Of a stretch of 46,004 bases of DNA, positions 2,361 through 35,370 are shown in pieces. The notes below the pieces were generated by a model. It saw only the letters and a program-made list of their open reading frames with translations. It ran no database searches and was not told the origin of the DNA. The stretch spans positions 1 to 46,004 of IMG/VR virus record IMGVR_UViG_3300025601_000035, one strand, 5' to 3'. Source of the stretch: a virus. Both the position numbers and the translations under genes were made by a program. Every line of letters starts with the position of its first letter. Positions within the stretch are counted from its first letter, which is position 1.

Positions 2361-4137
2361 TTTTAAAGATTTTCTTTCTGCCTTAGATGATGATCCATTT
2401 GAAGAGATTCCTGTAGACCTAGACACCTTCCTTCATGATCCCCAGTATTTAGATCAGCCCCCATTATCTCAAATACAAAGAGACCTTGTTGAGGTGATGA
2501 GCCAGATATTTAGAGAAGAAGATTTAATGAGGTTTATGGGGGAAAAGGAGGGACGAAGACACTATAAGAAATACACTAAGTCTGAGGTAATCATGCAGTT
2601 GGGCAAGGGGTCGGGCAAGGATCACACTTCCACCATAGGTTGCGCTTACCTGGTTTATAAACTCATGTGCCTTAAAGATCCTGCTAGATACTTCGGAAAA
2701 CCACCTGGAGACTCTATTGATATTATCAATATTGCCATCAATGCCCAGCAAGCAAAAACAGTTTTCTTTAAAAACTTTAAGACAAAGATACAAAGAAGCC
2801 CTTGGTTTGCAGGGAAGTATGATGCCAAGGCAGACTATGTAGAGTTTGATAAAACGATAACTGTTTATTCTGGCCACTCAGAAAGAGAAAGTCACGAGGG
2901 CTTGAACCTAATACTAGCCATCCTTGATGAGATCTCTGGTTTTGCTCAAGGCTCCAACAGTGGAAATGAAAATGCTAAAACAGGTGACGGTATATATAAG
3001 GCGTTCAGGGCATCTGTAGACTCTAGGTTTCCAGATTACGGAAAGGTCGTGTTACTTTCATTTCCCAGATTTCCAGGGGATTTTATTTCTAAAAGATATG
3101 ATGAGGTGGTGTCAGAAAAAGAGGTAGAGGTAAAAAAGCATACCTTTATTATTAACCCAGACCTACCTGACAACATTGAGGAGAATAAGTTTGACATAGA
3201 GTGGGAAGAGGAACACATCTTGTCGTATAAATTCCCTGGTGTTTATGCAATTAAAAGACCAACATGGGAGGTTAACCCCACAAGAAGTGTAAACGACTTC
3301 AAGGTTTCTTTTATTACTGATTATGCAAATGCAATGCAGAGATTTGCTTGCGTCCCCTCATATGTTTCCGATGCGTTCTTTAAACAAAAGGATAAATTAG
3401 AAAGGTCTATGAGCAAAAGAAATCCGATAGACTCATTTAAAAGAATAGAGCCTTCCTTTCAACCAGAGGAGGGGGTTCGATACTTCCTTCATGCTGACCT
3501 TGCTCAAAAGCATGATAAGTGTGCTATTGCCATTGCTCATGTTGATAAATGGGTAAGCGTTCAAACATTTAACGACTACACCCAGATACATCCTTTTGTA
3601 ATAGTGGATGCCGTTGTTTGGTGGGAACCTAAAAAGGAAGGTCCAGTAGACCTTTCAGAGGTGAAGAGGTGGATAATTGATTTTAGAAGAGAGGGGTATC
3701 AGATTGGACTCGTAACCTTTGATAGATGGCAGTCGTTTGATATTCAACAGGAGTTAAAGTCAGTTGGAATAAAAGCAGAAACTCTTTCTGTTGCTAAAAA
3801 GCATTATGAAGATTTGGCAATGTTAGTTTATGAAAATAGGGTGGTCATGCCACATATTGATATTCTTCTAAGTGAGATGAGTGAACTTCGTATCATATCT
3901 GATAAGAAAGTTGACCATCCAAGAAAAGGCAGTAAGGACTTATCTGATGCTGTAACAGGTGCGGTGTACAATGCTATTGCTCATACCCCCCGTAATTTAA
4001 ATCAAGAAATAGAGGTTCACGATTGGCAGTCTTTGACAAGTAAGCAGAATAAAGAAAAAACTCTAAACGATACCTATCAGCCCCCGCCAATGAGCAGCGA
4101 AGTTGAAGACTATCTAGATTCGTTTAACACACTGTAA
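2350..4137 (+). CDS. terminase large subunit
   Basis: The ATP-driven DNA packaging motor and headful or site-specific nuclease, 595 residues, a usual full length. The ATPase domain has a Walker A-like QLGKGSGKDHT (K90) and a Walker B LILAILDEISGF with D193-E194. The C-terminal nuclease (RNase H fold) shows D383 in FLHADLAQKHD, D458 in LVTFDRWQ, and D533 in KDLSDAVTGAVYN, the expected metal-binding trio. It overlaps the putative small subunit by 11 bases. This is the firmest phage marker in the window. Confidence 0.95.
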   Translation: MSLDFKDFLSALDDDPFEEIPVDLDTFLHDPQYLDQPPLSQIQRDLVEVMSQIFREEDLMRFMGEKEGRRHYKKYTKSEVIMQLGKGSGKDHTSTIGCAYLVYKLMCLKDPARYFGKPPGDSIDIINIAINAQQAKTVFFKNFKTKIQRSPWFAGKYDAKADYVEFDKTITVYSGHSERESHEGLNLILAILDEISGFAQGSNSGNENAKTGDGIYKAFRASVDSRFPDYGKVVLLSFPRFPGDFISKRYDEVVSEKEVEVKKHTFIINPDLPDNIEENKFDIEWEEEHILSYKFPGVYAIKRPTWEVNPTRSVNDFKVSFITDYANAMQRFACVPSYVSDAFFKQKDKLERSMSKRNPIDSFKRIEPSFQPEEGVRYFLHADLAQKHDKCAIAIAHVDKWVSVQTFNDYTQIHPFVIVDAVVWWEPKKEGPVDLSEVKRWIIDFRREGYQIGLVTFDRWQSFDIQQELKSVGIKAETLSVAKKHYEDLAMLVYENRVVMPHIDILLSEMSELRIISDKKVDHPRKGSKDLSDAVTGAVYNAIAHTPRNLNQEIEVHDWQSLTSKQNKEKTLNDTYQPPPMSSEVEDYLDSFNTL

Positions 4138-7377: not shown

Positions 7378-7582
7378 TGGTTTGTTAGAAATGGAAAAGA
7401 TAGTAGACTCCAGAGAAGATCTAGATTGGCATGGGTGGGATGTCGTAAGATATTTTAATAACGGGTCGATTATGTCAAAAGACTCTGTTTTCATTAACAA
7501 TAAATGGCTTAAGAGAAAGATCTATCCAGTAAAGGAAGACGGATGGAACGTTCCTGATTCTTTTGGGGGCAGCCTTGCGTAA
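7367..7582 (+). CDS. hypothetical protein
   Basis: A 71-residue protein with a WHGWDVVRYFNNGSI core and many aromatic residues. Its ATG lies 11 bases inside the deaminase gene and its end overlaps the WhiB start, fitting the compact gene array. Not recognised. Confidence 0.5.
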   Translation: MLVNGLLEMEKIVDSREDLDWHGWDVVRYFNNGSIMSKDSVFINNKWLKRKIYPVKEDGWNVPDSFGGSLA

Positions 7583-7856
7583 CTGGAAGGATGAAGCAAA
7601 ATGCTTGGACATGGACACTAACTTATTTTTTGACAAGTATGAAGAAGACCCACACCTTGCTGGATCAGTAGACAACATATGCAAAAGGTGCCCCGTAAAT
7701 AAACAATGTTTTGCATGGGGAATATCTAACAAAGAGTGGGGGGTATGGGGAGGGGTCTACCTCAAAGAAGGAAAGATTGATAAGGAGTTCAACGCCCACA
7801 AGGAAAAGGGAGACTGGTTTGATATTTGGGAGTCTTTGACGATGGAGACACAGTGA
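7575..7856 (+). CDS. WhiB-like iron-sulfur transcription regulator
   Basis: Actinobacterial WhiB-like proteins bind a [4Fe-4S] cluster and, in host relatives, associate with the principal sigma factor. With a TTG start at 7575 (preceded by GGGGG), the four cluster cysteines are C10, C36, C39 and C45 (C-x25-C-x2-C-x5-C), followed by the family turn GVWGG at about residues 56-60. An in-frame TTG at 7563 is the alternative start. The family occurs only in Actinobacteria and their phages, so it points to the host. A second WhiB is at 32592. Confidence 0.85.
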   Translation: MRNWKDEAKCLDMDTNLFFDKYEEDPHLAGSVDNICKRCPVNKQCFAWGISNKEWGVWGGVYLKEGKIDKEFNAHKEKGDWFDIWESLTMETQ

Positions 7857-24596: not shown

Positions 24597-24645
24597 TATT
24601 TTCCTCCATGATAGTCTCCGCGTATTTTTGTGTGTTGTTAGACAT
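24589..24645 (-). CDS. possible 18-residue coupling peptide
   Basis: An ATG overlapping the previous stop (TAATG) and preceded by GGAGGAGGC encodes MSNNTQKYAETIMEENND, ending within the next start. It may only serve to couple translation of its neighbours. Confidence 0.35.
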   Translation of the reverse strand: MSNNTQKYAETIMEENND

Positions 24646-24950
24646 TATGCCTCCTCCACTTCTTCTAGGAATAAAGACTGTTCATCTATATACCAACAAA
24701 GTGCGTCGGGCACGGTTCCATTTAGGTACTCCACCGCAAATTCGGCGGTAAAGTAAAGACATTCTTCAATGTCGAAGTCATCTTCTCGGGTAACATCATT
24801 TTTATAATCTTTAATGTCAGCATCATATTGGTCTTTGTTAACTTGATAACCATGATCTATTGCAAAGTCAATAACGGCAATATCAAAGTCAATTGCCTTG
24901 GAATGACTTCCGTCGATATAGCAACCAGTTTTCATATCAATTCCAATCAT
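24645..24950 (-). CDS. hypothetical acidic protein
   Basis: A 101-residue protein: GCYIDGSHSKAIDFDIAVID is the recognisable part, seen in phage hypotheticals. Possible starts are GTG 24965, ATG 24950 and ATG 24935; I prefer 24950, about ten bases after GGTGG. Function unknown. Confidence 0.55.
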   Translation of the reverse strand: MIGIDMKTGCYIDGSHSKAIDFDIAVIDFAIDHGYQVNKDQYDADIKDYKNDVTREDDFDIEECLYFTAEFAVEYLNGTVPDALCWYIDEQSLFLEEVEEA

Positions 24951-25587: not shown

Positions 25588-25616
25588 CGCTTATACGATG
25601 GGTCTGACATTAGCAA
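25588..25616 (-). promoter_or_regulatory. promoter/operator of the GTCTGACA family
   Basis: Minus strand: TTGCTA, 17-base spacer containing ATGTCAGACCC, TAAGCG. Upstream of the gene at 25158. The -35 and -10 are weak but the shared spacer motif is intact. Confidence 0.55.
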
Positions 25617-25672
25617 GAAAGTTTTCACGATTTTTTTCATGACTTTCTTAAACGCCTTCTTAAAGTAGTTTT

Positions 25673-25860
25673 TTGTTTAAAAAATGGGCCCGGAGCGTGT
25701 AAGCCCGAGCCTGTTGCCTGCGCAAAGAATCCTCCAACGACAGCGGAGCAACCCAACCCGCGTCAGCCAACCGAGACCCATCCAGCGCATACCTGAGATC
25801 ATGCCCGGGCCGTGACAGGGTGACGAGATAACCGCTACTCCATAGGTGCGGGTGGGCAGT
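25673..25860 (-). pseudogene. remnant of a nucleotide-sugar dehydratase (RmlB-like C-terminus)
   Basis: An open minus-strand frame without a start codon, bounded by TAA codons. It reads SRPGHDLRYALDGSRLADAG, then GWVAPLSLEDSLRRQ, the C-terminal signature of dTDP-glucose 4,6-dehydratase-like enzymes (RPGHDxRYAxD..K...LGW.P..s.ee.L). The stretch is GC-rich unlike its surroundings. The NAD-binding domain is absent, so I call it a decayed or imported fragment. It fills most of the 453-base gap 25434-25886. Confidence 0.65.
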
Positions 25861-25886
25861 TTATCATCATGCCCAGGATGCGATAC

Positions 25887-26885
25887 CTATACTCCTGCAA
25901 CCTCTTTCACGGCATGCAGGATGCGGTTCTTCTCAGCGTTGGTAACGGGGTCGAATCCGCTAGCAGCAGCAAGTACGTTCTCTTGACCACGTTCGCCACG
26001 GCCCTTGCGGAACCAGTCCAAGCGCTCCGTCATGGAGTTGTATGCACCCCACGCAGTGTTGGCAATGCCCACACCGTTGACAGTTTCGGACGAATAGATC
26101 TCCTCAATGAGGTCAACCTTGGTTTCCCACTTCTTGATAGCACCCTTGGCGTCCTTATCGGGACGAGGGTATAGAGCCTCAACGATTTTGTTAAAGGTAG
26201 CCTGGGTGATCTCTTTTGCGATTAGAGACTGAGCCTCTTTCTCAAACTCATCAAAGTAGTTGTTTGCCAGAGAAAGCACTTCGCGTGCTGCCATGATCTT
26301 GCCACCAGCAGTCTGGGTATGACGAATCTTGAATGACTGCTTGGCACGACCAAGGGCCATGTTCAATGTGTTCTGGCAAACTACACGAACGGGTGTGATG
26401 GATGCCTGAATTGCGGTAGAGCCATCATGCGATGTGTGAACCAACAGGTATGACTTGACAACATCCGAAACACCATTAGGGTCAAGAACTGTCTCACGGT
26501 CAAGGGCTAGGGAGCCAAACACGACGCGACCATCCTTGAGAGAGCCAGCGGTCTCCCAACGACCACCGTCTAGCAGGGCATCACCAAAGTCAAATAGTTC
26601 CTCGTTCTGTAGAACACGGTAGCGCTCTCCGACGGTAGCCAGAACATCGGTTTCCTTGTTGAATGGGTTATTCCGTAGTACCATGTGGATAGGACTAATG
26701 ACATTATAGTCAGAGGGGTAGGGGACAGGCTCTAGGCGAACGTCCCAATCGTTTAGGTATGCTGCTTCAAGCATCTGTAGGGTAGACTTTTCTTCGGTAA
26801 ACACAGTGCCAAGACCATGCCACGCGGGTTCGCGGAAGGAAGCGAAAGCCTGCTCACCATTCTGACCAACTTCGACTGCGTGCAT
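25887..26885 (-). CDS. DUF932 phage/plasmid-like protein
   Basis: A 332-residue protein with the DUF932 (phage/plasmid-like TIGR03299) pattern: PAWHGLGTVFTEEKSTLQML, then ERYRVLQNEELFDFGDALLD and TPVRVVCQNTLNMALGRAK, ending with an NAYNSMTERLDWFRKGRG-like region (here GAYNSMTERLDWF). Members are frequent in phages and plasmids, and their molecular role is not established. The coding sequence is GC-rich. AAGGAGATAAAA precedes the ATG; a consensus promoter lies 36 bases upstream. Confidence 0.85.
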   Translation of the reverse strand: MHAVEVGQNGEQAFASFREPAWHGLGTVFTEEKSTLQMLEAAYLNDWDVRLEPVPYPSDYNVISPIHMVLRNNPFNKETDVLATVGERYRVLQNEELFDFGDALLDGGRWETAGSLKDGRVVFGSLALDRETVLDPNGVSDVVKSYLLVHTSHDGSTAIQASITPVRVVCQNTLNMALGRAKQSFKIRHTQTAGGKIMAAREVLSLANNYFDEFEKEAQSLIAKEITQATFNKIVEALYPRPDKDAKGAIKKWETKVDLIEEIYSSETVNGVGIANTAWGAYNSMTERLDWFRKGRGERGQENVLAAASGFDPVTNAEKNRILHAVKEVAGV

Positions 26886-26920
26886 TTTTATCTCCTTAGT
26901 TAGGTTTGTGTAATACCATT

Positions 26921-26949
26921 ACCTTATCCTACCAGTCTGACATTGTCAA
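26921..26949 (-). promoter_or_regulatory. promoter/operator of the GTCTGACA family
   Basis: Minus strand TTGACA, 17-base spacer starting ATGTCAGAC, TAAGGT. TGACATTGTCA (26938-26948) is a perfect inverted repeat across the -35 box. Drives the DUF932 gene. Confidence 0.8.
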
Positions 26950-27005
26950 ATATTTTTATGCATCTTGCGAGATATTTTTGGGGTTTCTTAAAGCAACTTC
27001 TTAAA
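26935..27005 (-). repeat. 71-bp exact repeat, copy A
   Basis: Identical to 34748-34818. Contains the operator half-site and two TTTAAGAA units (26985-27005, period 13) on the minus strand, with AT-rich DNA between. Confidence 0.85.
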
Positions 27006-27043
27006 GGCATAAAGACTTGACTTTTATTGGTTTTCGGGGCCGG

Positions 27044-27116
27044 TGCCCTTGGCAGGATTCGAACCTGCGACTAATGGATTAGAAGTCCACTACTCTTTCC
27101 GCTGAGTTACAAGGGC
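27044..27116 (-). tRNA. tRNA-Arg (TCT)
   Basis: Cloverleaf: acceptor GCCCTTG/CAAGGGC, D arm ACTCAGCGGAAAGAGT, anticodon stem GTGGA/TCCAT with loop CTTCTAA (TCT, reads AGA/AGG), T arm GCAGG-TTCGAAT-CCTGC, discriminator A. CCA is not encoded. Confidence 0.95.
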
Positions 27117-27121
27117 GTGAG

Positions 27122-27196
27122 TGCGGTGAGTGGGATTTGAACCCACGATCTCCTGCTTATAAGACAGGGGCCTTGACCAGACTTGGCGATCACCGC
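27122..27196 (-). tRNA. tRNA-Ile (TAT)
   Basis: Cloverleaf: acceptor GCGGTGA/TCACCGC, anticodon stem CCTGT/GCAGG with loop CTTATAA (anticodon TAT, reads ATA), T arm GTGGG-TTCAAAT-CCCAC, discriminator A. It is five bases from tRNA-Arg, so both are probably on one transcript. Confidence 0.95.
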
Positions 27197-27207
27197 TAGA
27201 TATTAAA

Positions 27208-27459
27208 TTATGCAGATGACTCAGAGTGATCATTTATCTGATCACGTTCATCTATTATATTCACGGCGGTATCGAATAGTCCAGTTTCATGCTCATTAAA
27301 ATGATGTGAACAAAAATAGAGTGAGCCTGTAACAAATTGAACAATCACAAATGCTTGTGCAGGGCAGCCTTTTGCATCGCATCTATCCTTTTTGGTTAAG
27401 GTAGGAGCCTCTGGGTTATTTGTTGTCATTATGTCTGGGGTGGCTGTTGAAGCACTCAC
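27208..27459 (-). CDS. actinobacterial-type CxxC/HH zinc protein
   Basis: An 83-residue protein whose core RCDAKGCPAQAFVIVQFVTG then LYFCSHHFNEHE resembles a small zinc-binding family frequent in Actinobacteria (DUF7455-like). It starts with GTG seven bases after AAAGGAG; TATAAT lies on the minus strand near 27480. The gene sits directly upstream of the two tRNAs. Function unknown. Confidence 0.65.
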   Translation of the reverse strand: MSASTATPDIMTTNNPEAPTLTKKDRCDAKGCPAQAFVIVQFVTGSLYFCSHHFNEHETGLFDTAVNIIDERDQINDHSESSA

Positions 27460-27538
27460 TCATTCTCCTTTGTTTGTTCTATTATACCCTCTCTACCCCC
27501 AATAAATAGCGTGCTTCATCGGGGGCAGAGGTGAGTGA

Positions 27539-27940
27539 CTAATTACTTACATTCACAGACTCTACAATAGAACCTGTTACGTCTGTGTCTCCGTACCAGG
27601 AGTCCATAGAGTAGTGTGCATTTTCAAAAATTTGATCAAGGTCTTCATCAGCACTACAGGTAACGAATCCTTTGTATCGAACAACAATATCAAATGATAC
27701 GGTTTTGGTAAGTTCAACTCCTAGCAATTCCGCCATGTCTTCAATGAGATCTTTTTGATTGGCAGGATCTTCATACACTGTTGCCAAATAGTCTTTGAGA
27801 GACTCTATAGAGTAAACAAGTTCTTCGTTACGCTTTGATAATGCGATATTGGATTTGCTTAGGTTCTCAGCAAGGCCGTTTAATTGATCAACGTCTGAAA
27901 GGTTATTGTATTTGTAGTTTACGAAACTAGGGTCAATCAT
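27539..27940 (-). CDS. hypothetical protein with coiled-coil segment
   Basis: A 133-residue acidic protein; residues about 18-55 (LNGLAENLSKSNIALSKRNE) look coiled-coil. The start has GGAGGCATAAA upstream and lies right after the previous gene. Not recognised. Confidence 0.6.
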   Translation of the reverse strand: MIDPSFVNYKYNNLSDVDQLNGLAENLSKSNIALSKRNEELVYSIESLKDYLATVYEDPANQKDLIEDMAELLGVELTKTVSFDIVVRYKGFVTCSADEDLDQIFENAHYSMDSWYGDTDVTGSIVESVNVSN

Positions 27941-27941
27941 T

Positions 27942-28328
27942 TTATGCCTCCACTAATTGAGGGGCGTACTTATTAATAAAGTCTTTTCTAGTTAATTCCT
28001 CAATGGGTTCGGTGATTGTATTGGTATATGAAGAGTAGTCATAGATAGCAATGGTGTCTGTGCCAAAGTCATAGACAGGAACTGGATATTCATTATCTGC
28101 AAAGGTGTTAATGGTAATTCCCCAGCCAAGATTTTGGCTCCAATCACTACCCACTAGTTGTGAGATAGTGATTCGTGTTGCATATGCAGCATCGTGGGGG
28201 AGTCGATCATTAGCAGAACTTAGAGCATAGGCAAAAGAAGTTAGCATGTTTACCCCCGCCCAATGCCCGTAGACGAAAATGATGTTTCCATCTTCCTGAC
28301 GCATTCCGAAATTCGCACGTTCCCCCAT
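27942..28328 (-). CDS. conserved phage protein (GHWAG family)
   Basis: A 128-residue protein with GERANFGMRQEDGNIIFVYG, HWAGVNMLTSFAYALSSAND and ATRITISQLVGSDWSQNLG. The RANF, YGHWxG and YATRI motifs are conserved in actinobacteriophage proteins I have seen, without assigned function. It follows the upstream gene after one base. Confidence 0.65.
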   Translation of the reverse strand: MGERANFGMRQEDGNIIFVYGHWAGVNMLTSFAYALSSANDRLPHDAAYATRITISQLVGSDWSQNLGWGITINTFADNEYPVPVYDFGTDTIAIYDYSSYTNTITEPIEELTRKDFINKYAPQLVEA

Positions 28329-28329
28329 G

Positions 28330-28476
28330 CTAGGCCACCTTTACGGTAGTCCAGCGAACCGAGCCTTCAACATCAAGGCGCACGCGCATAGAGCCATTGT
28401 CATTCTTGACAACCTCTTGGATAGTACCTGTGACGCCGCTCTTCGCGGTAGTGAACTGTGAGCCAACAGTAATCAT
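28330..28476 (-). CDS. small conserved phage protein
   Basis: A 48-residue beta-rich protein, MITVGSQFTTAKSGVTGTIQ then MRVRLDVEGSVRWTTV, resembling an SH3-like barrel. ATG at 28476 has GAAAGGAAGCAAGA upstream; a longer frame to 28515 overlaps the promoter. Confidence 0.65.
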   Translation of the reverse strand: MITVGSQFTTAKSGVTGTIQEVVKNDNGSMRVRLDVEGSVRWTTVKVA

Positions 28477-28505
28477 TCTTGCTTCCTTTCGTAGTTGATA
28501 GTAAG

Positions 28506-28535
28506 ACACTATCACATGGGTCTGACCTTTGTCAA
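28506..28535 (-). promoter_or_regulatory. promoter/operator of the GTCTGACA family
   Basis: Minus strand TTGACA, 18-base spacer with GGTCAGACCC, TAGTGT, upstream of the gene at 28330. Confidence 0.7.
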
Positions 28536-28581
28536 GGGGAATTGTGGGCAGTTTTAATGAACATGTCCAGGTTCACCAGCA

Positions 28582-28722
28582 TTACTTTACGATATATGGT
28601 GAATTCTTCAAGGCAGTCCAAGACACATTGTCAATAATCTTGCCTAGTGAATCACGGGTAACGATACGCTCCGAAACACCATAGCGAGTGTTCCAAGTTT
28701 CGAGGGTACGGTAAGTGGTCAT
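28582..28722 (-). CDS. small hypothetical protein
   Basis: A 46-residue protein, MTTYRTLETWNTRYGVSERI with a DSLGKIIDNVSW turn. AAAGGAGAAATA precedes the ATG. Not recognised. Confidence 0.6.
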   Translation of the reverse strand: MTTYRTLETWNTRYGVSERIVTRDSLGKIIDNVSWTALKNSPYIVK

Positions 28723-28732
28723 TATTTCTCCT

Positions 28733-28942
28733 TTAGTCAACGATAACGGTTACTTTGGTATGATGTAAGCCTTTGAGTTTCTTACTATATCCTTCTTCGT
28801 CTAGTAAAGTCAAGACAATTACGATAGTTTCTCCGACACTTTCTTCGTCATAGTCTTTGTCTATTACCTCATATACTTCGTCTTCAATGAGAAGGACATC
28901 ATCTATTTCTATAGAGTATAATTCCATATGTTCAGTGGTCAT
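28733..28942 (-). CDS. small acidic protein
   Basis: A 69-residue beta-rich protein, MTTEHMELYSIEIDDVLLIE, very acidic, perhaps an SH3/OB-like barrel. GGAGAAAACC lies upstream. Not recognised. Confidence 0.55.
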   Translation of the reverse strand: MTTEHMELYSIEIDDVLLIEDEVYEVIDKDYDEESVGETIVIVLTLLDEEGYSKKLKGLHHTKVTVIVD

Positions 28943-28972
28943 GTCAAGGTTTTCTCCAAACTATTTATATTT

Positions 28973-29089
28973 TTATAGCCATCCAAATAATACCACCCCA
29001 AGCCCCGCAATGACGGGGAGGATAATGATGGCGGTAAAAAAAATTCCCAAAAGGGTTTCAATGGAATTGGGCCTATCGTTATTGTTCAT
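28973..29089 (-). CDS. 38-residue membrane peptide, leaderless
   Basis: MNNNDRPNSIETLLGIFFTA followed by IIILPVIAGLGVVLFGWL, one transmembrane helix. On the minus strand TGA-TAGTGT (29096-29101) ends 6 bases before the ATG, so a leaderless mRNA is predicted. It resembles in design the small membrane proteins at 22624 and 29276. Confidence 0.6.
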   Translation of the reverse strand: MNNNDRPNSIETLLGIFFTAIIILPVIAGLGVVLFGWL

Positions 29090-29216
29090 GTCATGACACT
29101 ATCATTTTTTATTGATTATTGCCAGATTTTCCACGATTTTCAGCGATTTTTTCTTAATGATCTTAAAAGAAAGGAGGTTCCTCTTTAAAATGCGACCGGC
29201 CCCATACTGCAAACAT

Positions 29217-29265
29217 GTTGCAGCACAAGGCTTTTGGATATGCGGTCAAACTGGTTGCAGGGCAA
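29217..29265. repeat. two GTTGC-type palindromes
   Basis: GTTGCAGCACAA at 29217 and GTTGCAGGGCAAC at 29253-29265, with CCGGCC near 29197, directly downstream of the gene at 29276. The same order of elements recurs in other minus-strand gaps. Confidence 0.6.
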
Positions 29266-29275
29266 CGGTTTATGG

Positions 29276-29413
29276 CTATGCATTTTTTAATACAATGCCC
29301 CACAACACAAGCATGACGATCAAGTAGGGTACGAAAGAAATTGCTCTAGGTCTATTGGGGTTTATGTATAAGACTAGGACGGTAATGCTAAAAAATATAA
29401 AGGCAAGCGCCAT
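29276..29413 (-). CDS. small membrane protein
   Basis: A 45-residue protein, MALAFIFFSITVLVLYINPN then SFVPYLIVMLVLWGIVL: two transmembrane helices. It starts two bases after the stop of the preceding gene, with GGGGCG upstream. Function unknown. Confidence 0.5.
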   Translation of the reverse strand: MALAFIFFSITVLVLYINPNRPRAISFVPYLIVMLVLWGIVLKNA

Positions 29414-29415
29414 TC

Positions 29416-29973
29416 CTATGACGCCCCTCCCCTTACGATAATCCAAATTAGTGCCTGAGCGGTACGGGGAGTGATCCCAAACTCTTGAGCCACAACGCAA
29501 ATGGCTTCCGACAGTTCTCGATACACTTTCTTGGTGGGGCTATCGGTTGACATGTTGGCAGCACGCATCATCCACACGTCAATGACTACCGCTTCGGTGT
29601 CACCAGCAATGGCGCGAGCGAAGGCGTTAGTCTTCTGGCCCTTGAGAGCCGAAAAGCCTTGCGAAACAGAGGCTTCGGCCATTTTTAGATTATTAGACAG
29701 ACCCTTGACGGGCTTGCCGTTGGCGAACGCATATGACTTGGCAACGTTGGTGGCCCAACGCTCACGGGGAGAGAATGCCGAAACGACAGACGCGCCACAC
29801 TCTAGGCTAATGCTCATTAGTTCGGCCACGTCCTCAGCCACCTCTTGCGCCTCAGAATACCACACGCTGGCGGCTTCCATCTGGGCAAGTGTTGCGGTCA
29901 TTACAAGGTCACGAAAGGACTGTGCGTAGGTGGGAACGGTGGTCAGGGCTTCTTGTGCTAGTTTCGTTGTCAT
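29416..29973 (-). CDS. HhH-GPD-like conserved phage protein
   Basis: A 185-residue helical protein: SAFSPRERWATNVAKSYAFA, LSNNLKMAEASV, ALKGQKTNAFARAIAGD and VVIDVWMMRAAN, ending with GITPRTAQALIWI. The order of helices and the VID-W-R segment recall HhH-GPD DNA glycosylases (VDTHV.R), and such proteins are common in phages, but no catalytic residue is certain. The coding sequence is GC-rich. Leaderless: TAGGTT ends 6 bases before the ATG, with TTGACA 17 bases further up. Confidence 0.65.
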   Translation of the reverse strand: MTTKLAQEALTTVPTYAQSFRDLVMTATLAQMEAASVWYSEAQEVAEDVAELMSISLECGASVVSAFSPRERWATNVAKSYAFANGKPVKGLSNNLKMAEASVSQGFSALKGQKTNAFARAIAGDTEAVVIDVWMMRAANMSTDSPTKKVYRELSEAICVVAQEFGITPRTAQALIWIIVRGGAS

Positions 29974-29979
29974 GAGGTA

Positions 29980-30008
29980 AACCTATCAGATTAGTCAGAC
30001 ATTGTCAA
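29980..30008 (-). promoter_or_regulatory. leaderless promoter/operator of the GTCTGACA family
   Basis: Minus strand TTGACA, 17-base spacer ATGTCTGAC..TGA, TAGGTT, then 6 bases to the ATG at 29973. Confidence 0.75.
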
Positions 30009-30022
30009 AGGGGGAAGGGGGG

Positions 30023-30160
30023 CTATTCGGTAACAAATTGGTTACGATGCTTAGGCTTGCGAGAATACTTGGCCTTATTCTTGTGAGGCTGAGCAGCATT
30101 AGAACGACGAAGGTCAAGGGTGGCTCTCAGATGTCCATTAGACTTGCGAGTATTATTCAT
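30023..30160 (-). CDS. small basic protein, leaderless
   Basis: A 45-residue, Lys/Arg/His/Asn-rich protein (MNNTRKSNGHLRATLDLRRS, then KAKYSRKPKHRNQF), likely nucleic-acid binding. The mRNA is predicted leaderless from a near-consensus promoter. Similar short basic proteins occur in actinobacteriophages. Confidence 0.65.
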   Translation of the reverse strand: MNNTRKSNGHLRATLDLRRSNAAQPHKNKAKYSRKPKHRNQFVTE

Positions 30161-30166
30161 GACATG

Positions 30167-30195
30167 ATTTTAGCATATATTGTAAGTGATGTCAA
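30167..30195 (-). promoter_or_regulatory. near-consensus leaderless promoter
   Basis: Minus strand TTGACA, 17-base spacer ending TGC, TAAAAT, then 6 bases to the ATG at 30160. It lacks the GTCTGACA operator motif. Confidence 0.75.
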
Positions 30196-30261
30196 GTTTA
30201 AAAAGTTGTTTGTTTGCAACGGGTTTGGCATTCATGGCTTGTTATCTTAACCTCGTAAACC

Positions 30262-30274
30262 GTTGTGCCGCAAC
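30262..30274. repeat. GTTGC-type palindrome
   Basis: GTTGTGCCGCAAC followed by AACTTTCG, in the gap downstream of the winged-helix gene at 30323. Confidence 0.65.
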
Positions 30275-30322
30275 AACTTTCGCGCCCGGTGCCTTTCCCC
30301 CTAGAAGGGGTACTCAGCGATC

Positions 30323-30505
30323 TCATCCCATCACCTCCCGTCCCTTATCGGTCACATACCACCACGGGTTGGGACTACCAAGCAGACCCAAATCGATCAG
30401 CCCGTCCGACCAGAGACGATCCAACATCCGCCGCGTGACATCCATGCGGTATCCGCTGTCGATCAGTTTTAGCGCGCGTCGCGCGGCTGGGGTTACCGCG
30501 CTCAT
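30323..30505 (-). CDS. winged-helix-like protein, copy 1
   Basis: A 60-residue protein, AVTPAARRALKLIDSGYRMD, then RRMLDRLWSDGLIDLGLLG and WYVTDKGREVM: the helix-helix-wing order with a C-terminal T-x-KG-R fits a short winged-helix or restriction-control-like DNA binder. GC-rich. A near-identical copy is at 33482. It starts in an ATGA overlap with the 21-residue peptide gene. Confidence 0.7.
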   Translation of the reverse strand: MSAVTPAARRALKLIDSGYRMDVTRRMLDRLWSDGLIDLGLLGSPNPWWYVTDKGREVMG

Positions 30506-30567
30506 GCCGTCACCTCCACTAGCAGCGCATCAACCCACGGGTCATCGGAAAATTCAAAGGGGGTCAT
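30502..30567 (-). CDS. 21-residue leader peptide
   Basis: MTPFEFSDDPWVDALLVEVT plus Ala, with AAAGGAAAC upstream and an ATGA link to the winged-helix gene. The same DDPWVDALL end closes the 63-residue protein at 33661, in the matching place before copy 2. Conserved pairing supports translation. Confidence 0.6.
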   Translation of the reverse strand: MTPFEFSDDPWVDALLVEVTA

Positions 30568-30595
30568 GTCGTTTCCTTTCGTTGTTGTTAAATAA

Positions 30596-30624
30596 AAACT
30601 ATCACGAGGGTCTGACACTGAGAA
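30596..30624 (-). promoter_or_regulatory. promoter/operator of the GTCTGACA family
   Basis: Minus strand TTCTCA, 17-base spacer GTGTCAGACCC..TGA, TAGTTT. Two TTTAAGA units lie just upstream (30625-30645). Confidence 0.65.
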
Positions 30625-30689
30625 CTTAAAGAGGCATCTTAAAGGTATGGTTATCATCAAACCAAGGAATCGTGACCGGCCCGAAAACC

Positions 30690-30702
30690 GTTGCGCTGCA
30701 AC
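30690..30702. repeat. GTTGC-type palindrome
   Basis: GTTGCGCTGCAAC, the perfect form, with GACTTTCG to the right and CCGGCCC to the left, 49 bases beyond the 3' end of sufB. Confidence 0.7.
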
Positions 30703-30750
30703 GACTTTCGCGCTCGTAATAACCGCGAACCGGCACCATCACCGGTGACA

Positions 30751-32163
30751 TCAGCCAACGGCCCCTTCCATCTGCAACTCGATGAGCCGATTAAGTTCTA
30801 GCGCATACTCCATGGGCAACTCTCGGGCGATGGGCTCAACGAACCCGCGCACGATCATGGCCATCGCCTCATCCTCGGTCATTCCTCGACTCATCAGATA
30901 AAACAACTGATCATCGCTGACCTTGCTCACGGTCGCCTCATGACCGATGGAGACGTCATCTTCACGCACATCCACATACGGGTAGGTATCGCTGCGCGAA
31001 ATATCGTCTACCAGCAAGGCGTCGCACTTCACCGTGCTCTTCGAGCCGTGTGATCCTTCGAGGATCTGAACAAGACCACGATAGGAGGTACGGCCGCCGC
31101 CACGGGCTACGGACTTAGACACGATGTTCGACGATGTGTGCGGCGCGGCATGGACCATCTTGGAGCCTGCGTCTTGATGCTGTCCTTCACCGGCGAATGC
31201 CACCGAAAGAGTCTCACCCTTGGCATGTTCACCGGTCATCCACACCGCCGGGTACTTCATGGTGACCTTCGACCCCAGGTTTCCATCGATCCACTCCATG
31301 GTGGCTCCGCGCTGTGCAACCGCCCGCTTGGTGACGAGGTTGTACACATTGTTGGACCAGTTCTGGATCGTCGTGTAGCGGCATCGTGCGTTGGGCTTGA
31401 CCACGATTTCCACCACTGCCGAGTGCAGCGAGTCAGATGAATAAACCGGTGCCGTGCAACCCTCAACGTAGTGCACGTAGGCATCCTCATCAACGATGAT
31501 CAAGGTACGCTCAAACTGCCCCATGTTTTCAGTGTTGATGCGGAAGTAGGCTTGCAGGGGGATGCCGACCTTGACGCCCTTGGGTACGTAGATGAACGAC
31601 CCACCCGACCACACCGCGGTGTTGAGTGCAGCGAACTTGTTGTCACCCACGGGAATGATCGTGCCAAAGTATTCGCGGAACAGGTCTTCGTGTTCGCGCA
31701 GAGCCGAGTCGGTGTCGAGAAAGAGCACACCCTGCTCTTCTAAGTCTTCGCGAATCTGGTGATAGACGACCTCTGATTCGTACTGGGCCGCAACACCAGA
31801 CACAAGACGCTGCTTCTCCGCCTCGGGGATGCCGAGTTTGTCATAGGTGTTCTTGATGTCGTCGGGCAACTCTTCCCAACTTGTTGCCTGCTTCTCCGTG
31901 GAACGCACGAAGTACTTGATGGAGTCAAAGTTGATACCCCCCAGGTTTGATCCCCACACGGGCATCGGTTTGCGTTCGAACAGACGCAGACCCTTCAGCC
32001 GCATCTGCAGCATCCAGTCAGGCTCATTCTTCAATGCGCTGATGTCACGCACCACGTCCTCGGACAAGCCACGTCGTGCATTGGCGCCGGCGGTATCGGA
32101 GTCGCGCCAGCCGTAGTCGTATCGGCCAAGGCCGTCAAGTTCGGGGTGAGCGGTCGTGGTCAT
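30751..32163 (-). CDS. sufB: SufB, Fe-S cluster assembly scaffold protein
   Basis: Core of the SufBCD complex that builds [Fe-S] clusters. At 470 residues it is full length and very like actinobacterial Suf[55 protein letters not shown], and the late [12 protein letters not shown] (scaffold Cys) followed by GHEATVSKV (conserved Glu). No disrupting mutation is seen. sufC, sufD and sufS are absent, so it would join host partners or replace host SufB. GC-rich, host-like codon use suggests recent capture. It is last in a coupled operon led by a WhiB gene; ATGA start, GGAGG upstream. Confidence 0.95.
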
Positions 32164-32375
32164 GCGTGGGACCTCCGTTGTGTCGTGGCGGATGGTGCAG
32201 ATGCAGATTGTGCGGATACAGATTGTGAGGTGTGTTCGGTGAGTGGGGCTGGGTTGCGACGCGTGGCCTCACGTCGTTTGATGTATCGACGCTCCTGCTT
32301 TTTGCTCATGCTTCGGCAGCAGCCGTAGTGGCAGTTAGTCCGATGGCTTCCTGCGTTTCGGCGGGATCTAATCAT
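32160..32375 (-). CDS. small basic Cys/His protein upstream of sufB
   Basis: A 71-residue protein. The first 45 residues, [20 protein letters not shown] then [17 protein letters not shown], resemble a short basic phage family with HRTxC..GCC. The last 26 (Ser/Thr/Ala/Gln-rich) look like run-on sequence, and the GC content rises towards sufB, so the capture junction may lie here. AAGGAGGAATC precedes the ATG; the stop overlaps the sufB start. Confidence 0.65.
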
Positions 32376-32458
32376 GATTCCTCCTTGCAATATTTACAGT
32401 AGTGGTCGGGGTCAGATATTTTTTCCATGAGGTGATCTCCAAACTCTAGGATGTTCAT
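32372..32458 (-). CDS. 28-residue CxxC peptide
   Basis: MNILEFGDHLMEKISDPDHY followed by CKYCKEES. The start is fused to the previous stop (TGATG) and the end overlaps the next gene, so it is translated within the WhiB-SufB operon. The HYCKYC end could bind metal. Confidence 0.5.
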   Translation of the reverse strand: MNILEFGDHLMEKISDPDHYCKYCKEES

Positions 32459-32595
32459 CAGTACTCCTGCCCATCTAATTGATCGTTAATTTCATCGCAT
32501 AGAGATTTCAACAGCCACCCCTCGCGATCCATGAGATGCTGCAAACACATTACAATAGTGTCGACGTCTGCTCGGGTTAGGGTTAGTTTATTCAT
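32458..32595 (-). CDS. 45-residue helical protein
   Basis: MNKLTLTRADVDTIVMCLQH then LLKSLCDEINDQLDG, an amphipathic helical protein. Starts in an ATGA overlap with the WhiB stop, AAAGGTG upstream. Function unknown. Confidence 0.6.
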   Translation of the reverse strand: MNKLTLTRADVDTIVMCLQHLMDREGWLLKSLCDEINDQLDGQEY

Positions 32596-32843
32596 GCTGA
32601 CACCTTTCCATAGTTGATAGCGATATCTTCTTGCAAGTTAGATACAAATGAGCGCCGTTCCGCTCCTGTCATTCCCCCGTATACATGAGGCTCAAAGTCA
32701 TCGTTTGCAATAGCAAAGGCTAGACAATCGTCGATGACGCTGCACGATTCGCATACCTCTTTCGCCTGATTGACTCTAGACGTGACACCGCTCAGAAAAA
32801 TTGCACTGTCAACGTTTAAGCATTCTGCCTTATCCTGCCACAT
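32592..32843 (-). CDS. WhiB-like iron-sulfur regulator, second copy
   Basis: An 83-residue WhiB-like protein with four cluster cysteines C8, C31, C34 and C40 (C-x22-C-x2-C-x5-C) and the VYGGMTGAERRSF turn and helix. It should carry a [4Fe-4S] cluster and act on transcription, possibly through the host sigma factor. It differs clearly from the copy at 7575. It is the first gene of the operon ending in sufB. Confidence 0.9.
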   Translation of the reverse strand: MWQDKAECLNVDSAIFLSGVTSRVNQAKEVCESCSVIDDCLAFAIANDDFEPHVYGGMTGAERRSFVSNLQEDIAINYGKVSA

Positions 32844-32871
32844 GTCTTGCTCCTTGCTAGTAGTTGATTAA

Positions 32872-32900
32872 ATCTTATCATGAGGGTCTGACATTGTGGC
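32872..32900 (-). promoter_or_regulatory. promoter/operator of the GTCTGACA family, whiB-sufB operon
   Basis: Minus strand GCCACA, 17-base spacer ATGTCAGACCC..TGA, TAAGAT. The -35 box is poor while the spacer motif is perfect, suggesting dependence on a bound activator. Confidence 0.65.
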
Positions 32901-33214
32901 TAGGACACTAGCAGCGATTCCTCAAAATAATCTAGGACACGTTCGGCCAGTTCTGTTTCTCCCACATAGACACTCTCAATGCCTGACCACCACGAGCACT
33001 CCACATATGTTTCACCGCCATAGCCAAAGGTGATCCAAGCGTTAGGGCCGCCATGTGCCACGAGCAGCGTTACCGAAACAAGGTCACCCCTAGAGTTTCT
33101 AGTGTACTTGTAGTCCAAAATGTCTTCTAGGTAATCGCCAACGTCTTCGACCTCTGCCGTTCGCAGCGAGACGGCGAGTTGTTCTGCATACTCTTTAGCG
33201 GTATAGGTGGTCAT
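32900..33214 (-). CDS. hypothetical acidic protein
   Basis: A 104-residue protein: AKEYAEQLAVSLRTAEVEDV, TLLVAHGGPNAWITFGYGG, VECSWWSGIE. The glycine and aromatic-rich centre suggests a compact alpha/beta fold. GAAGGATT upstream. The 3' end touches the next promoter. Function unknown. Confidence 0.6.
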   Translation of the reverse strand: MTTYTAKEYAEQLAVSLRTAEVEDVGDYLEDILDYKYTRNSRGDLVSVTLLVAHGGPNAWITFGYGGETYVECSWWSGIESVYVGETELAERVLDYFEESLLVS

Positions 33215-33335
33215 TTTTTAATCCTTCGTTTGTTGGATAGTGTTTGATTTTACACTAGGGGTCTGTCTGTTTGTCTACCCTACGGGTATGGCACCCACCC
33301 TACCTATAGGGCAGGGTCGGCACCATAGACCTAGG

Positions 33336-33485
33336 CTAGTCGTCGTACTCTTCGGCTAGGGCCCGCAACTTACGCGCAACCCATTCCACGTCGACAGTCC
33401 TGCCAACGGCCAAGGAATTGCCTACGTGGTCGGCCACTTGGCTGACCTCCCGCACTAGTTCGCCCATAGTATAGTCGGCGCTCAT
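33336..33485 (-). CDS. 49-residue helical protein
   Basis: MSADYTMGELVREVSQVADH followed by VEWVARKLRALAEEYDD. It starts in an ATGA overlap with winged-helix copy 2. GC-rich. Copy 1 has no equivalent downstream. Not recognised. Confidence 0.6.
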   Translation of the reverse strand: MSADYTMGELVREVSQVADHVGNSLAVGRTVDVEWVARKLRALAEEYDD

Positions 33486-33664
33486 GACATCGCCTTTCGT
33501 CCCTTATCGGTCACATACCACCACGGGTTGGGACTACCAAGCAGACCCAAATCGATCAGCCCGTCCCGTTCGAGACGATCCAACATCCGCCGCGTGACAT
33601 CCATGCGGTACCCGCTGTCGATAAGTTCTAGCGCGCGTCGCGCGGCTGGGGTTACCGCGCTCAT
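33482..33664 (-). CDS. winged-helix-like protein, copy 2
   Basis: A 60-residue near-duplicate of the protein at 30323; differences cluster at RLERDGL versus RLWSDGL and at the last residues. The surrounding 210 bases (33498-33707) match 30339-30548. It starts in an ATGA overlap and ends in another, so it is part of a three-gene coupled unit. Confidence 0.7.
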   Translation of the reverse strand: MSAVTPAARRALELIDSGYRMDVTRRMLDRLERDGLIDLGLLGSPNPWWYVTDKGRKAMS

Positions 33665-33852
33665 GCCGTCACCTCGAGCAGCGCATCAACCCACCACGGG
33701 TCGTCGGTGAGCGGGGGGAGTGAATTAGCAATGAGAGTAGACATAACTAGGCTACGTTCCTCATACCCAATGTGCATATAGATTTCGCACCCAACACATA
33801 GGCCCTTGAATAGCACGCCTACATGTCCACACGCTTCGCAAATATCAATCAT
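33661..33852 (-). CDS. zinc-knuckle protein with DDPWWVDALL tail
   Basis: A 63-residue protein with CEACGHVGVLFKGLCVGC (C-x2-C..C-x2-C) then a linker and LTDDPWWVDALLEVTA. The tail equals the free 21-residue peptide at 30502, so copy 1 seems a shortened version without the zinc domain. AGGAAGGTT upstream. Confidence 0.6.
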   Translation of the reverse strand: MIDICEACGHVGVLFKGLCVGCEIYMHIGYEERSLVMSTLIANSLPPLTDDPWWVDALLEVTA

Positions 33853-33888
33853 GATGAGAACCTTCCTAGTGGCTGTTGTTATGTCTCA

Positions 33889-33917
33889 AGGCTATCGTCT
33901 GGGTCTGACATTGTAAA
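33889..33917 (-). promoter_or_regulatory. promoter/operator of the GTCTGACA family
   Basis: Minus strand TTTACA, 17-base spacer ATGTCAGACCC.., TAGCCT, upstream of the gene at 33661. Confidence 0.65.
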
Positions 33918-34026
33918 ATTATGAATCATGACAAATCGGACATTCTGCAAGAATTATTTATAACATTTGCATAACGGGAAAATATCATTGGGCTGCATAA
34001 AATATATTTTCATATACTTCAAACCC

Positions 34027-34127
34027 GTTGCGCTGCAACAACTATGGTTTTCTTAAAGCAACTTCTTAAACCCTTGTGCTGCAATGACTTTCGCGGGGCC
34101 GGTGGCCGAAAACTGTTGCACTGCAAC
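34027..34127. repeat. palindrome cluster with TTTAAGAA pair
   Basis: GTTGCGCTGCAAC (34027-34039), the variant CTTGTGCTGCAATG (34073-34086) and GTTGCACTGCAAC (34115-34127), with two TTCTTAAA units (34050-34070, period 13) between. Fills the 280-base gap 33853-34132 together with the promoter above. Confidence 0.75.
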
Positions 34128-34132
34128 AACTA

Positions 34133-34327
34133 TCAGCCCGCATCCTCTAATATCCTGTCCCGAATAGCATGGCGAAGTTCTCGCAAGGAAAACATAACCT
34201 CTTCGCCCATAGAGTAGTCGTCATCATTATCGGATGCGTTGCGAGAGCGCTCTGCAATTTGTTCTAGTCTCGCAAGGTCATTGCTGATCATTTTTAGATT
34301 TAAGATAAATGCATCGGGTCGTTCCAT
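34133..34327 (-). CDS. small helical protein
   Basis: A 64-residue protein, MERPDAFILNLKMISNDLAR then EVMFSLRELRHAIRDRILED, helical. ATG at 34327 has GGGAGGACTAAC upstream and lies just after the previous stop. Not recognised. Confidence 0.6.
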   Translation of the reverse strand: MERPDAFILNLKMISNDLARLEQIAERSRNASDNDDDYSMGEEVMFSLRELRHAIRDRILEDAG

Positions 34328-34328
34328 G

Positions 34329-34475
34329 TTAGTCCTCCCGTTCATCAAAGTCTAGTGGCTCAAAGTTCTCGCAGTAGTCACAGACTAGGTTGTGGCCATC
34401 AACCCAATCTAAAAACTTTTCGTCGCATAGGGCGCATATAACAATTTCCGTATCATGCTGCTCTGTTGTCATCAT
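34329..34475 (-). CDS. zinc ribbon protein, leaderless
   Basis: A 48-residue protein with ICALCDEKFLDWVDG and LVCDYCENFEP, a two-knuckle zinc ribbon. The minus strand has TAGGAT ending 6 bases before the ATG and TTGACA 17 bases further, so the mRNA is leaderless. Confidence 0.65.
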   Translation of the reverse strand: MMTTEQHDTEIVICALCDEKFLDWVDGHNLVCDYCENFEPLDFDERED

Positions 34476-34481
34476 GGCATT

Positions 34482-34510
34482 ATCCTAATCTGGGAAGTCT
34501 GATTTGTCAA
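34482..34510 (-). promoter_or_regulatory. leaderless promoter/operator inside the preceding gene
   Basis: Minus strand TTGACA, spacer AATCAGAC.. (17), TAGGAT. It lies within the last codons of the gene at 34485. Confidence 0.7.
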
Positions 34511-34640
34511 GGATCTCAAAGTCACCAAAGTTAACGCGAGGATCAGCGTCTACCTCAGATTCAATGTAGTCTAGTGCGCCATCACGAAAGTAGAAGACGC
34601 GGCAGTATTGGTTTAAGTAGTACACCTCGTATATGTTCAT
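34485..34640 (-). CDS. small hypothetical protein, leaderless
   Basis: A 51-residue protein, MNIYEVYYLNQYCRVFYFRD then an acidic tail. Minus strand TGC-TAAGGT (34647-34652) ends 6 bases before the ATG. Its 3' end contains the promoter of the next gene. Not recognised. Confidence 0.6.
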   Translation of the reverse strand: MNIYEVYYLNQYCRVFYFRDGALDYIESEVDADPRVNFGDFEILDKSDFPD

Positions 34641-34657
34641 GGGTTCACCTTAGCACT

Positions 34658-34748
34658 AGGGTCTGACATTTGCCGCCTGAGGCTCATGCACCTATCGGTG
34701 CCTTATTTGCTCAGGATATTTAGTTATAAAACTACCCTATCATGAGGG
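34658..34748 (-). repeat. 91-bp exact repeat with nested stems, copy A
   Basis: Identical to 35265-35355. Contains CCTGAG/CTCAGG (outer stem) around GCACC-TATC-GGTGC (inner stem). Transcribed from the promoter at 34734 it would form a 5' leader for the gene at 34485. Confidence 0.8.
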
Positions 34749-34762
34749 TCTGACATTGTCAA
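34734..34762 (-). promoter_or_regulatory. promoter/operator of the GTCTGACA family
   Basis: Minus strand TTGACA, 17-base spacer ATGTCAGACCC..TGA, TAGGGT; TGACATTGTCA palindrome at 34751-34761. Confidence 0.75.
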
Positions 34763-34818
34763 ATATTTTTATGCATCTTGCGAGATATTTTTGGGGTTTC
34801 TTAAAGCAACTTCTTAAA
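34748..34818 (-). repeat. 71-bp exact repeat, copy B
   Basis: Identical to 26935-27005, including the operator half and the TTCTTAAA pair (34798-34818). Confidence 0.85.
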
Positions 34819-34820
34819 CC

Positions 34821-34875
34821 CTTGTGCTGCAATGACTTTCGCGGGGCCGGTGGCCGAAAACTGTTGCGTTGCAAC
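34821..34875. repeat. palindromes forming a possible terminator hairpin
   Basis: CTTGTGCTGCAATG (34821-34834) and GTTGCGTTGCAAC (34863-34875). As RNA from the minus strand, CGAAAGTTGTTGC-AAC-GCAACAGTTTTCG can form 13 pairs with two wobbles, directly beyond the stop of the gene at 34887. Confidence 0.65.
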
Positions 34876-34886
34876 AACTTTCGAGA

Positions 34887-34961
34887 TTACATAGTTTCGA
34901 TATGTCCTACGATGCCCATTAGGAATATGAAAACTGTTAGTGCCGCAGCGCTTTTCAGCAT
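34887..34961 (-). CDS. 24-residue membrane peptide
   Basis: MLKSAAALTVFIFLMGIVGH plus IETM, one hydrophobic helix. The start is fused to the previous stop (TAATG) with GTGGAGG upstream. Support is coupling and composition. Confidence 0.45.
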   Translation of the reverse strand: MLKSAAALTVFIFLMGIVGHIETM

Positions 34962-35164
34962 TACAATGCCTCCACAAAATCGTTGCCATCTAACACTTTT
35001 TCAATGACTGGCAGGTGAGCATCACACACAAGGGTGACCCTGTTGTATCCATTGCCAAACACTTGTGTGATCTTGTGCCTTGCAAATTGGCGGGCAGAAC
35101 GATTGTCACAAAAAATGTGCTGACATACGGGCTTGCCCTCTACGGTATAGTTAGGCCAGGCCAT
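34961..35164 (-). CDS. Cys-containing small protein
   Basis: A 67-residue protein: CQHIFCDNRSARQFARHKIT and VTLVCDAHLPVIE, three Cys and a His that could bind zinc. ATG 35164 is preferred; a GTG at 35173 is possible. Function unknown. Confidence 0.55.
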   Translation of the reverse strand: MAWPNYTVEGKPVCQHIFCDNRSARQFARHKITQVFGNGYNRVTLVCDAHLPVIEKVLDGNDFVEAL

Positions 35165-35169
35165 GTTAA

Positions 35170-35247
35170 TCACTTACCTTCTTCGTTGTTGAACACTTGC
35201 CGCTGTACGCGGATATAATTATCGATTGCTTCTTGTATCCTGTTCAT
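35170..35247 (-). CDS. 25-residue peptide, first minus-strand gene
   Basis: MNRIQEAIDNYIRVQRQVFN plus NEEGK. Start region aligns base for base with the leaderless promoter before 34640 (GAAGGT in place of TAAGGT). The stop lies within the next gene start. Confidence 0.5.
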   Translation of the reverse strand: MNRIQEAIDNYIRVQRQVFNNEEGK

Positions 35248-35264
35248 GACTACACCTTCCTACG

Positions 35265-35355
35265 AGGGTCTGACATTTGCCGCCTGAGGCTCATGCACCT
35301 ATCGGTGCCTTATTTGCTCAGGATATTTAGTTATAAAACTACCCTATCATGAGGG
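35265..35355 (-). repeat. 91-bp exact repeat with nested stems, copy B
   Basis: Second copy of 34658-34748, placed before the gene at 35170. Together with the promoter and palindromes it occupies the 407-base divergent gap 35248-35654. Confidence 0.8.
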
Positions 35356-35370
35356 CCTGACACTTGTCTA
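35341..35370 (-). promoter_or_regulatory. promoter/operator of the GTCTGACA family
   Basis: Minus strand TAGACA, 18-base spacer with GTGTCAGGCCC, TAGGGT. First promoter of the minus-strand array. Confidence 0.6.

Follow-up and report, generated by a model that had tools for sequence, protein, structure and literature searches.

The locus lies in a 46,004-bp virus record (G000; the whole stretch analysed, hereafter the window) and consists of five chained minus-strand open reading frames that end in an intact sufB gene. The first gene (32592-32843) encodes a WhiB-like regulator assigned to its family by a PF02467 match of 57 bits and by four cysteines, C8, C31, C34 and C40; it has 12 viral relatives, the closest with 77% identity, and a second WhiB gene lies at 7563-7856. 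It is followed by a 45-aa phage ORF (32458-32595), for which eight related contigs have a 40-51% identical ORF near WhiB, a 28-aa phage ORF (32372-32458; 54-61% match in two related contigs), a 71-aa leader ORF that joins a phage N-terminal part to a SufR C-terminal tail (32160-32375), and sufB itself (30751-32163), which encodes an Fe-S scaffold of 470 aa. Along this chain, neighboring genes overlap by ATGA, TGATG, ATGA and ATGA in turn, and both these overlaps and the coordinates reproduce the five-gene chain of the preliminary description of this DNA.

That description had also placed the chain behind a phage-type promoter. In favor of this idea, a promoter-like motif with the core TGTCAGACCC lies upstream of WhiB (32884-32893, minus strand); the core has seven exact minus-strand copies between 25.6 and 35.3 kb, and the motif, in the form TGTCAGACCC-N~8-TA(A/G)NNT, is repeated on the minus strand across 25.6-35.4 kb of the window. 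The copies at 25600-35360 carry a -10-like TANNNT at fixed spacing and stand ahead of small phage genes. Judged by its form, the repeated motif looks like a putative phage-specific promoter family, whereas no minus-strand match of a general sigma-70 scan supports it. Two copies of a 227-nt repeat (30322-30548 and 33481-33707; 89-91% identical) bracket the WhiB-sufB region, and contig G018, from the same phage, ends exactly at the end of the left copy. Short dispersed intergenic palindromes of the type GTTGC..GCAAC also occur in the window (30256, 30684, 34020, 34064, 34812, 35487 and 35528), one of which was matched in the related phage G006 as well.

As had been proposed from its length and scaffold motifs, SufB is complete. 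It scores 719 bits with TIGR01980, whose curated cut-off is 346, over positions 2-448 of 448, and it keeps all nine of the positions checked against critical residues of Escherichia coli SufB, i.e. R226, N228, C254, Q285, W287, K303, C405 and H433/E434, the counterparts of which are R208, N210, C236, Q267, W269, K279, C380 and H408/E409. SufB is a scaffold that works together with SufC and SufD, with which it forms SufB2C2 and SufBC2D complexes (PMC6006206), and it needs SufC, and normally SufD too, for cluster building (PMC6006206). No gene for either partner lies beside sufB in the window: sufD is represented by a remnant of 21 nt, there is no separate sufD in the window, and a sufD search of all sufB-bearing viral contigs matched only sufB itself, under the sufD cut-off. 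Because neither sufC nor sufD was found in the phage, the SufB product would have to act via the host machine.

The sufB gene came from an actinobacterial host as part of a piece of its suf operon. An insert of 1535 nt (30730-32264, minus strand), in which the end of sufR is followed by the complete sufB and the beginning of sufD, is 96.1% identical to genome G115 (L224), and the similarity is confined to these borders, with none outside. The sufR part covers the last 101 nt of that gene with 14 mismatches, while the truncated sufD start (30730-30750; MSPVMVP), the 21 nt past sufB, has 0/21 mismatches. Within sufB there are 46 nucleotide differences, 43 of which are synonymous, leaving 468 of the 470 residues identical (99.6%; dN 0.003 and dS 0.144 by NG86), so that window and host proteins differ in two residues. 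No donor was found among genomes in the order of G050; the donor was found in the order of G054, where G115 matches the sufB segment with 97% DNA identity and the next genomes in a search of that order reach 82%. The name of this order comes from the title of a member genome, the MAG G054 (L011, Candidatus Nanopelagicales), rather than from a classification of G115. A SufB phylogeny, suggested earlier as a check against actinobacterial SufB, points the same way: the window copy, that of phage contig G001 and that of the actinobacterial G115 form one group with support 99/96. In G115 the gene order, with names read by eye, is sufR-sufB-sufD, followed by a Rieske-type protein, sufC and sufS. GC3 of sufB is 0.71 in both copies, and the finding of such a gene in a phage with 41% GC outside the insert marks it as a young arrival.

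The borders of the insert explain part of the operon-like layout. Residues 1-36/37 of the 71-aa ORF are 51-78% identical to a phage gene of 48-50 aa that in eight related contigs immediately precedes WhiB and whose end there (e.g. ..KRRETNEWKKDQNVAG) runs into the WhiB start. The C-terminal 34 residues match the tail of host SufR and are fused to the phage part in frame, and the ATGA by which this ORF overlaps sufB is the one that sufR and sufB share in the host. With a chimeric leader and an inherited overlap, part of the apparent operon was imported with the host DNA. The gene sits well inside the contig, and phage genes flank the insert on both sides, as seen for the window in a single contig; phage genes lie on both sides of sufB also in G001.

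G001 is a contig of 12.2 kb with about 52% GC outside sufB and represents a different, unrelated phage. It shares with the window the segment 30744-32205 (minus strand) at 99.8% by blastn, with three differences within sufB, and otherwise only two short stretches (24601-24930 at 94% and 33261-33340 at 91%). G003, a fragment of the phage of G001 from another metagenome, has the same left junction and, by blastn, carries the same segment as far as it reaches. What was replaced in this phage is visible in L233, which is 99.8% identical to G001 for the 3.9 kb that lead up to the junction; beyond it, L233 has an intact gene for a C5-cytosine methylase, then a 241-aa ORF and a gene for a HATPase-domain protein. 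The methylase gene of G001 breaks off after about 23 codons, where the SufR tail takes over in frame; searched alone, the stub (23-37 residues) had no match in Pfam and phage searches, and it was the intact L233 gene that identified it. Laid side by side, L233 (3856-8041) and L201, which is G001 (2562-4023), have the methylase/241-aa/HATPase cassette in one and sufB in the other, within one phage species, which suggests that the junction may be a cargo site for gene swapping. In G001, sufB reads opposite to both neighboring genes, like a moron. On either side of sufB, this phage has an exact copy of ATAGTACTTAATGTA, at L201 2482 and 4171. The fragment may have passed from phage to phage, or both phages may have obtained it from the same host strain; the nested borders in the window and G001 are by themselves no proof of transfer, because two independent captures could also nest.

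Capture of sufB extends beyond this fragment. A profile search for viral sufB gave six loci, comprising three that were already known, two prophage flanks (L198 and L199) and L197, a T4-like phage by its tail genes; as the viral scans were keyed on exact peptide words, the number of carriers is a lower bound. The related phages L003 and L006, as well as L005, which make up two further actinophage lineages, and L197 each carry sufB without visible suf neighbors, with the contigs of L003, L005 and L006 ending inside sufB so that the downstream side is the one in view. The tree joins L005 to another actinobacterial MAG (98/95) and sets L003 apart from both, in a weakly supported placement. In L005 (1-974), sufB is directly followed by a phage GroES gene (Cpn10, PF00166). 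Near sufB in L003 (1784-5619) lies an iron/redox group of two 2OG-Fe(II) oxygenase genes and a glutathione-peroxidase-like gene. Over the 57 codons of the sufB 3' end that L003 and L006 share, DNA identity is 92.6% with 57/57 residues identical, and this silent-only change points to selection on sufB within phages, which we regard as the best sign that the gene may be of use to them. By host identity, tree position and recurrence, sufB qualifies, as had been supposed, as a host-derived metabolic gene carried alone by phages, and it appears to be a mobile cargo gene, captured on its own by three or four unrelated phages at the least.

Not every phage record with sufB belongs here. In the INPHARED record of a Staphylococcus phage (phiSP44-1), sufB is host DNA at a prophage edge, next to an integrase gene; the INPHARED matches also included unannotated Listeria and Enterococcus records. 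'Microcystis phage MaAM05' was likewise set aside as a carrier: it holds sufBCDS-iscU along with panB and panC (MW495066.1, 263312-273195), and this region reads like cellular DNA filed as phage. In L198, L199 and NC_055019.1 (1-2569), all Firmicute prophages, host sufB has an integrase gene right next to it, which suggests that the 3' end of sufB may serve as an attachment site. These Firmicute prophages resemble the window in having sufB in records filed as phage, whereas the sufB of the window lies inside a phage contig, and the 25 families listed for 42 proteins of this contig include no integrase.

Altogether, we favor, as the more probable reading though with real reservations, a model in which the captured host sufB, as a mobile auxiliary gene, supplies the SufC/SufD machine of the host outside SufR control. 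The phage picked up a fragment of the host suf operon, from the end of sufR to the start of sufD, and illegitimate recombination would have inserted it at the 3' end of the short phage gene that closes the WhiB chain. There, sufB would be read from the phage promoter and translated by means of its own Shine-Dalgarno sequence (GGAGG) and the inherited ATGA overlap, and it would be freed of SufR, which represses suf in Mycobacterium (PMC6034842). Being nearly identical to the host protein, phage SufB should be able to join host SufC and SufD in SufBC2D and might thereby keep Fe-S assembly running in infection. Phage-driven SufB would in this way sustain or enlarge the SufBC2D pool of infected cells, which would benefit every Fe-S client, whether of host or virus, WhiB being only one of several. 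Keeping up cluster supply during infection, an alternative that the preliminary description had also named, is our best guess at the function, although extra SufB without additional SufC and SufD may bring no rise in cluster output.

The preliminary description had gone further and proposed a distinct system, in which phage SufB loads the [4Fe-4S] clusters of the phage's own WhiB proteins. The two genes do belong to the same overlapping chain, and the sufB-bearing contigs G001, G002 and G003 also carry WhiB elsewhere, yet when related phage contigs were searched for a conserved WhiB-to-SufB order, SufB turned out to be unlinked to WhiB. In no other sufB-bearing viral contig that we found (G001, G002/L003, L005, L006 and L197) does sufB adjoin WhiB; in G001 and G002, where both are in one contig, they lie 6-13 kb apart, and no WhiB was found in L197. 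Conversely, sufB is absent from twelve viral contigs that carry a related WhiB, several of which are close to 100 kb long, and WhiB is in any case usual in actinophages (PMC10914622, PMC10202952). Since the physical link is accounted for by the recent entry of the sufR'-sufB-sufD' piece into a small phage gene, at its end, the adjacency is best explained as where the insert happened to land, and a dedicated WhiB-SufB module is very unlikely; the co-occurrence allows WhiB as one of several Fe-S clients. Even more improbable is an artificial join of phage and host reads during assembly. The insert is spanned by one contig only, as G018, which is 99.9% identical to the window, stops before it, at 30548, so that the insert has been seen once in the population; a pattern scan of all viral contigs for the junctions 32264/32265 and 30729/30730 returned no second contig, and when viral contigs were scanned with the endonuclease VII gene (35.6 kb) for sisters to the right of the insert, none was found. 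A chimera would, however, need two host-phage joins in one locus with host flanks of only 101 and 21 nt, one of them leaving a leader in frame, and it would have to coexist with the same fragment in another phage from two metagenomes; phage motifs and the 227-nt repeat, moreover, stand on both sides of the insert.

If the capture and its position are taken as they stand, the auxiliary role of sufB still competes with readings in which the gene does nothing or diverts the Fe-S supply of the host. A host fragment caught by chance, which gives no benefit and will decay, would fit a very recent event that brought scraps of sufR and sufD along; the capture is indeed so recent, with two residues changed, that selection inside the phage of the window cannot be seen, and constraint from host and phage would look alike there. 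We nevertheless consider a neutral passenger unlikely, given that sufB is an unbroken gene within a translated chain, that both known insertions of the fragment, in the window and in G001, leave an in-frame leader, that unrelated phages, at least three or four of them, took up the same gene alone, and that L003 and L006 differ by silent changes only in the part they share. A use to the phage could also lie in diversion, with surplus SufB titrating host SufC as SufB2C2 and disturbing host Fe-S supply or SufR signaling: SufB2C2 does form and, without SufD, carries less iron (PMC6006206), sufB is always without sufC and sufD in these phages, and cells are harmed when suf expression is misregulated (PMC6034842). 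The cluster-building residues, all of which are kept, would be superfluous in a pure decoy, and this makes diversion a still weaker contender in our view, doubtful even beside the passenger. Returning to the auxiliary-gene model, a broader version is conceivable, and we offer it tentatively: lone sufB may be a convergent aid to phages, taken repeatedly without its partners since surplus SufB outside SufR control would suffice to redirect host SufC, SufD and SufS in infected cells, either to boost viral clients or to divert the machine from the host.

The nearest known counterparts of the phage sufB are nifU, sufE and iscA, which are auxiliary Fe-S assembly genes of phages and have been proposed to sustain host supply (e.g. 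PMC8940887, PMC8226683, PMC12542629). These are likewise single host-derived Fe-S building genes in environmental phages, but they encode carriers, sulfur-transfer partners and small scaffolds, whereas the phage of the window carries the SUF scaffold SufB alone, for which we found no report in the literature searched. Compared with SufB of the chromosomal sufR-sufB-sufD-sufC-sufS operon, the window copy is the same protein with the same catalytic residues and sufR/sufB ATGA overlap, yet it lies outside the operon, without sufD, sufC, sufS or SufR and behind a putative phage promoter. The WhiB of the window is small, has four cysteines and is of a common kind, like those of mycobacteriophage TM4 and of 'Ca. 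Nanopelagicales' phages, while the neighboring sufB is outside the known context of actinophage WhiB.

The window shows a gene capture caught nearly in the act, with a known donor operon, borders exact to the base and a chimeric leader, and the same fragment is present in a second phage, whose sister retains the methylase gene that was replaced. Finally, with the scaffold captured repeatedly and alone, it becomes possible to test whether the Fe-S supply of infected actinobacteria is limited by SufB.
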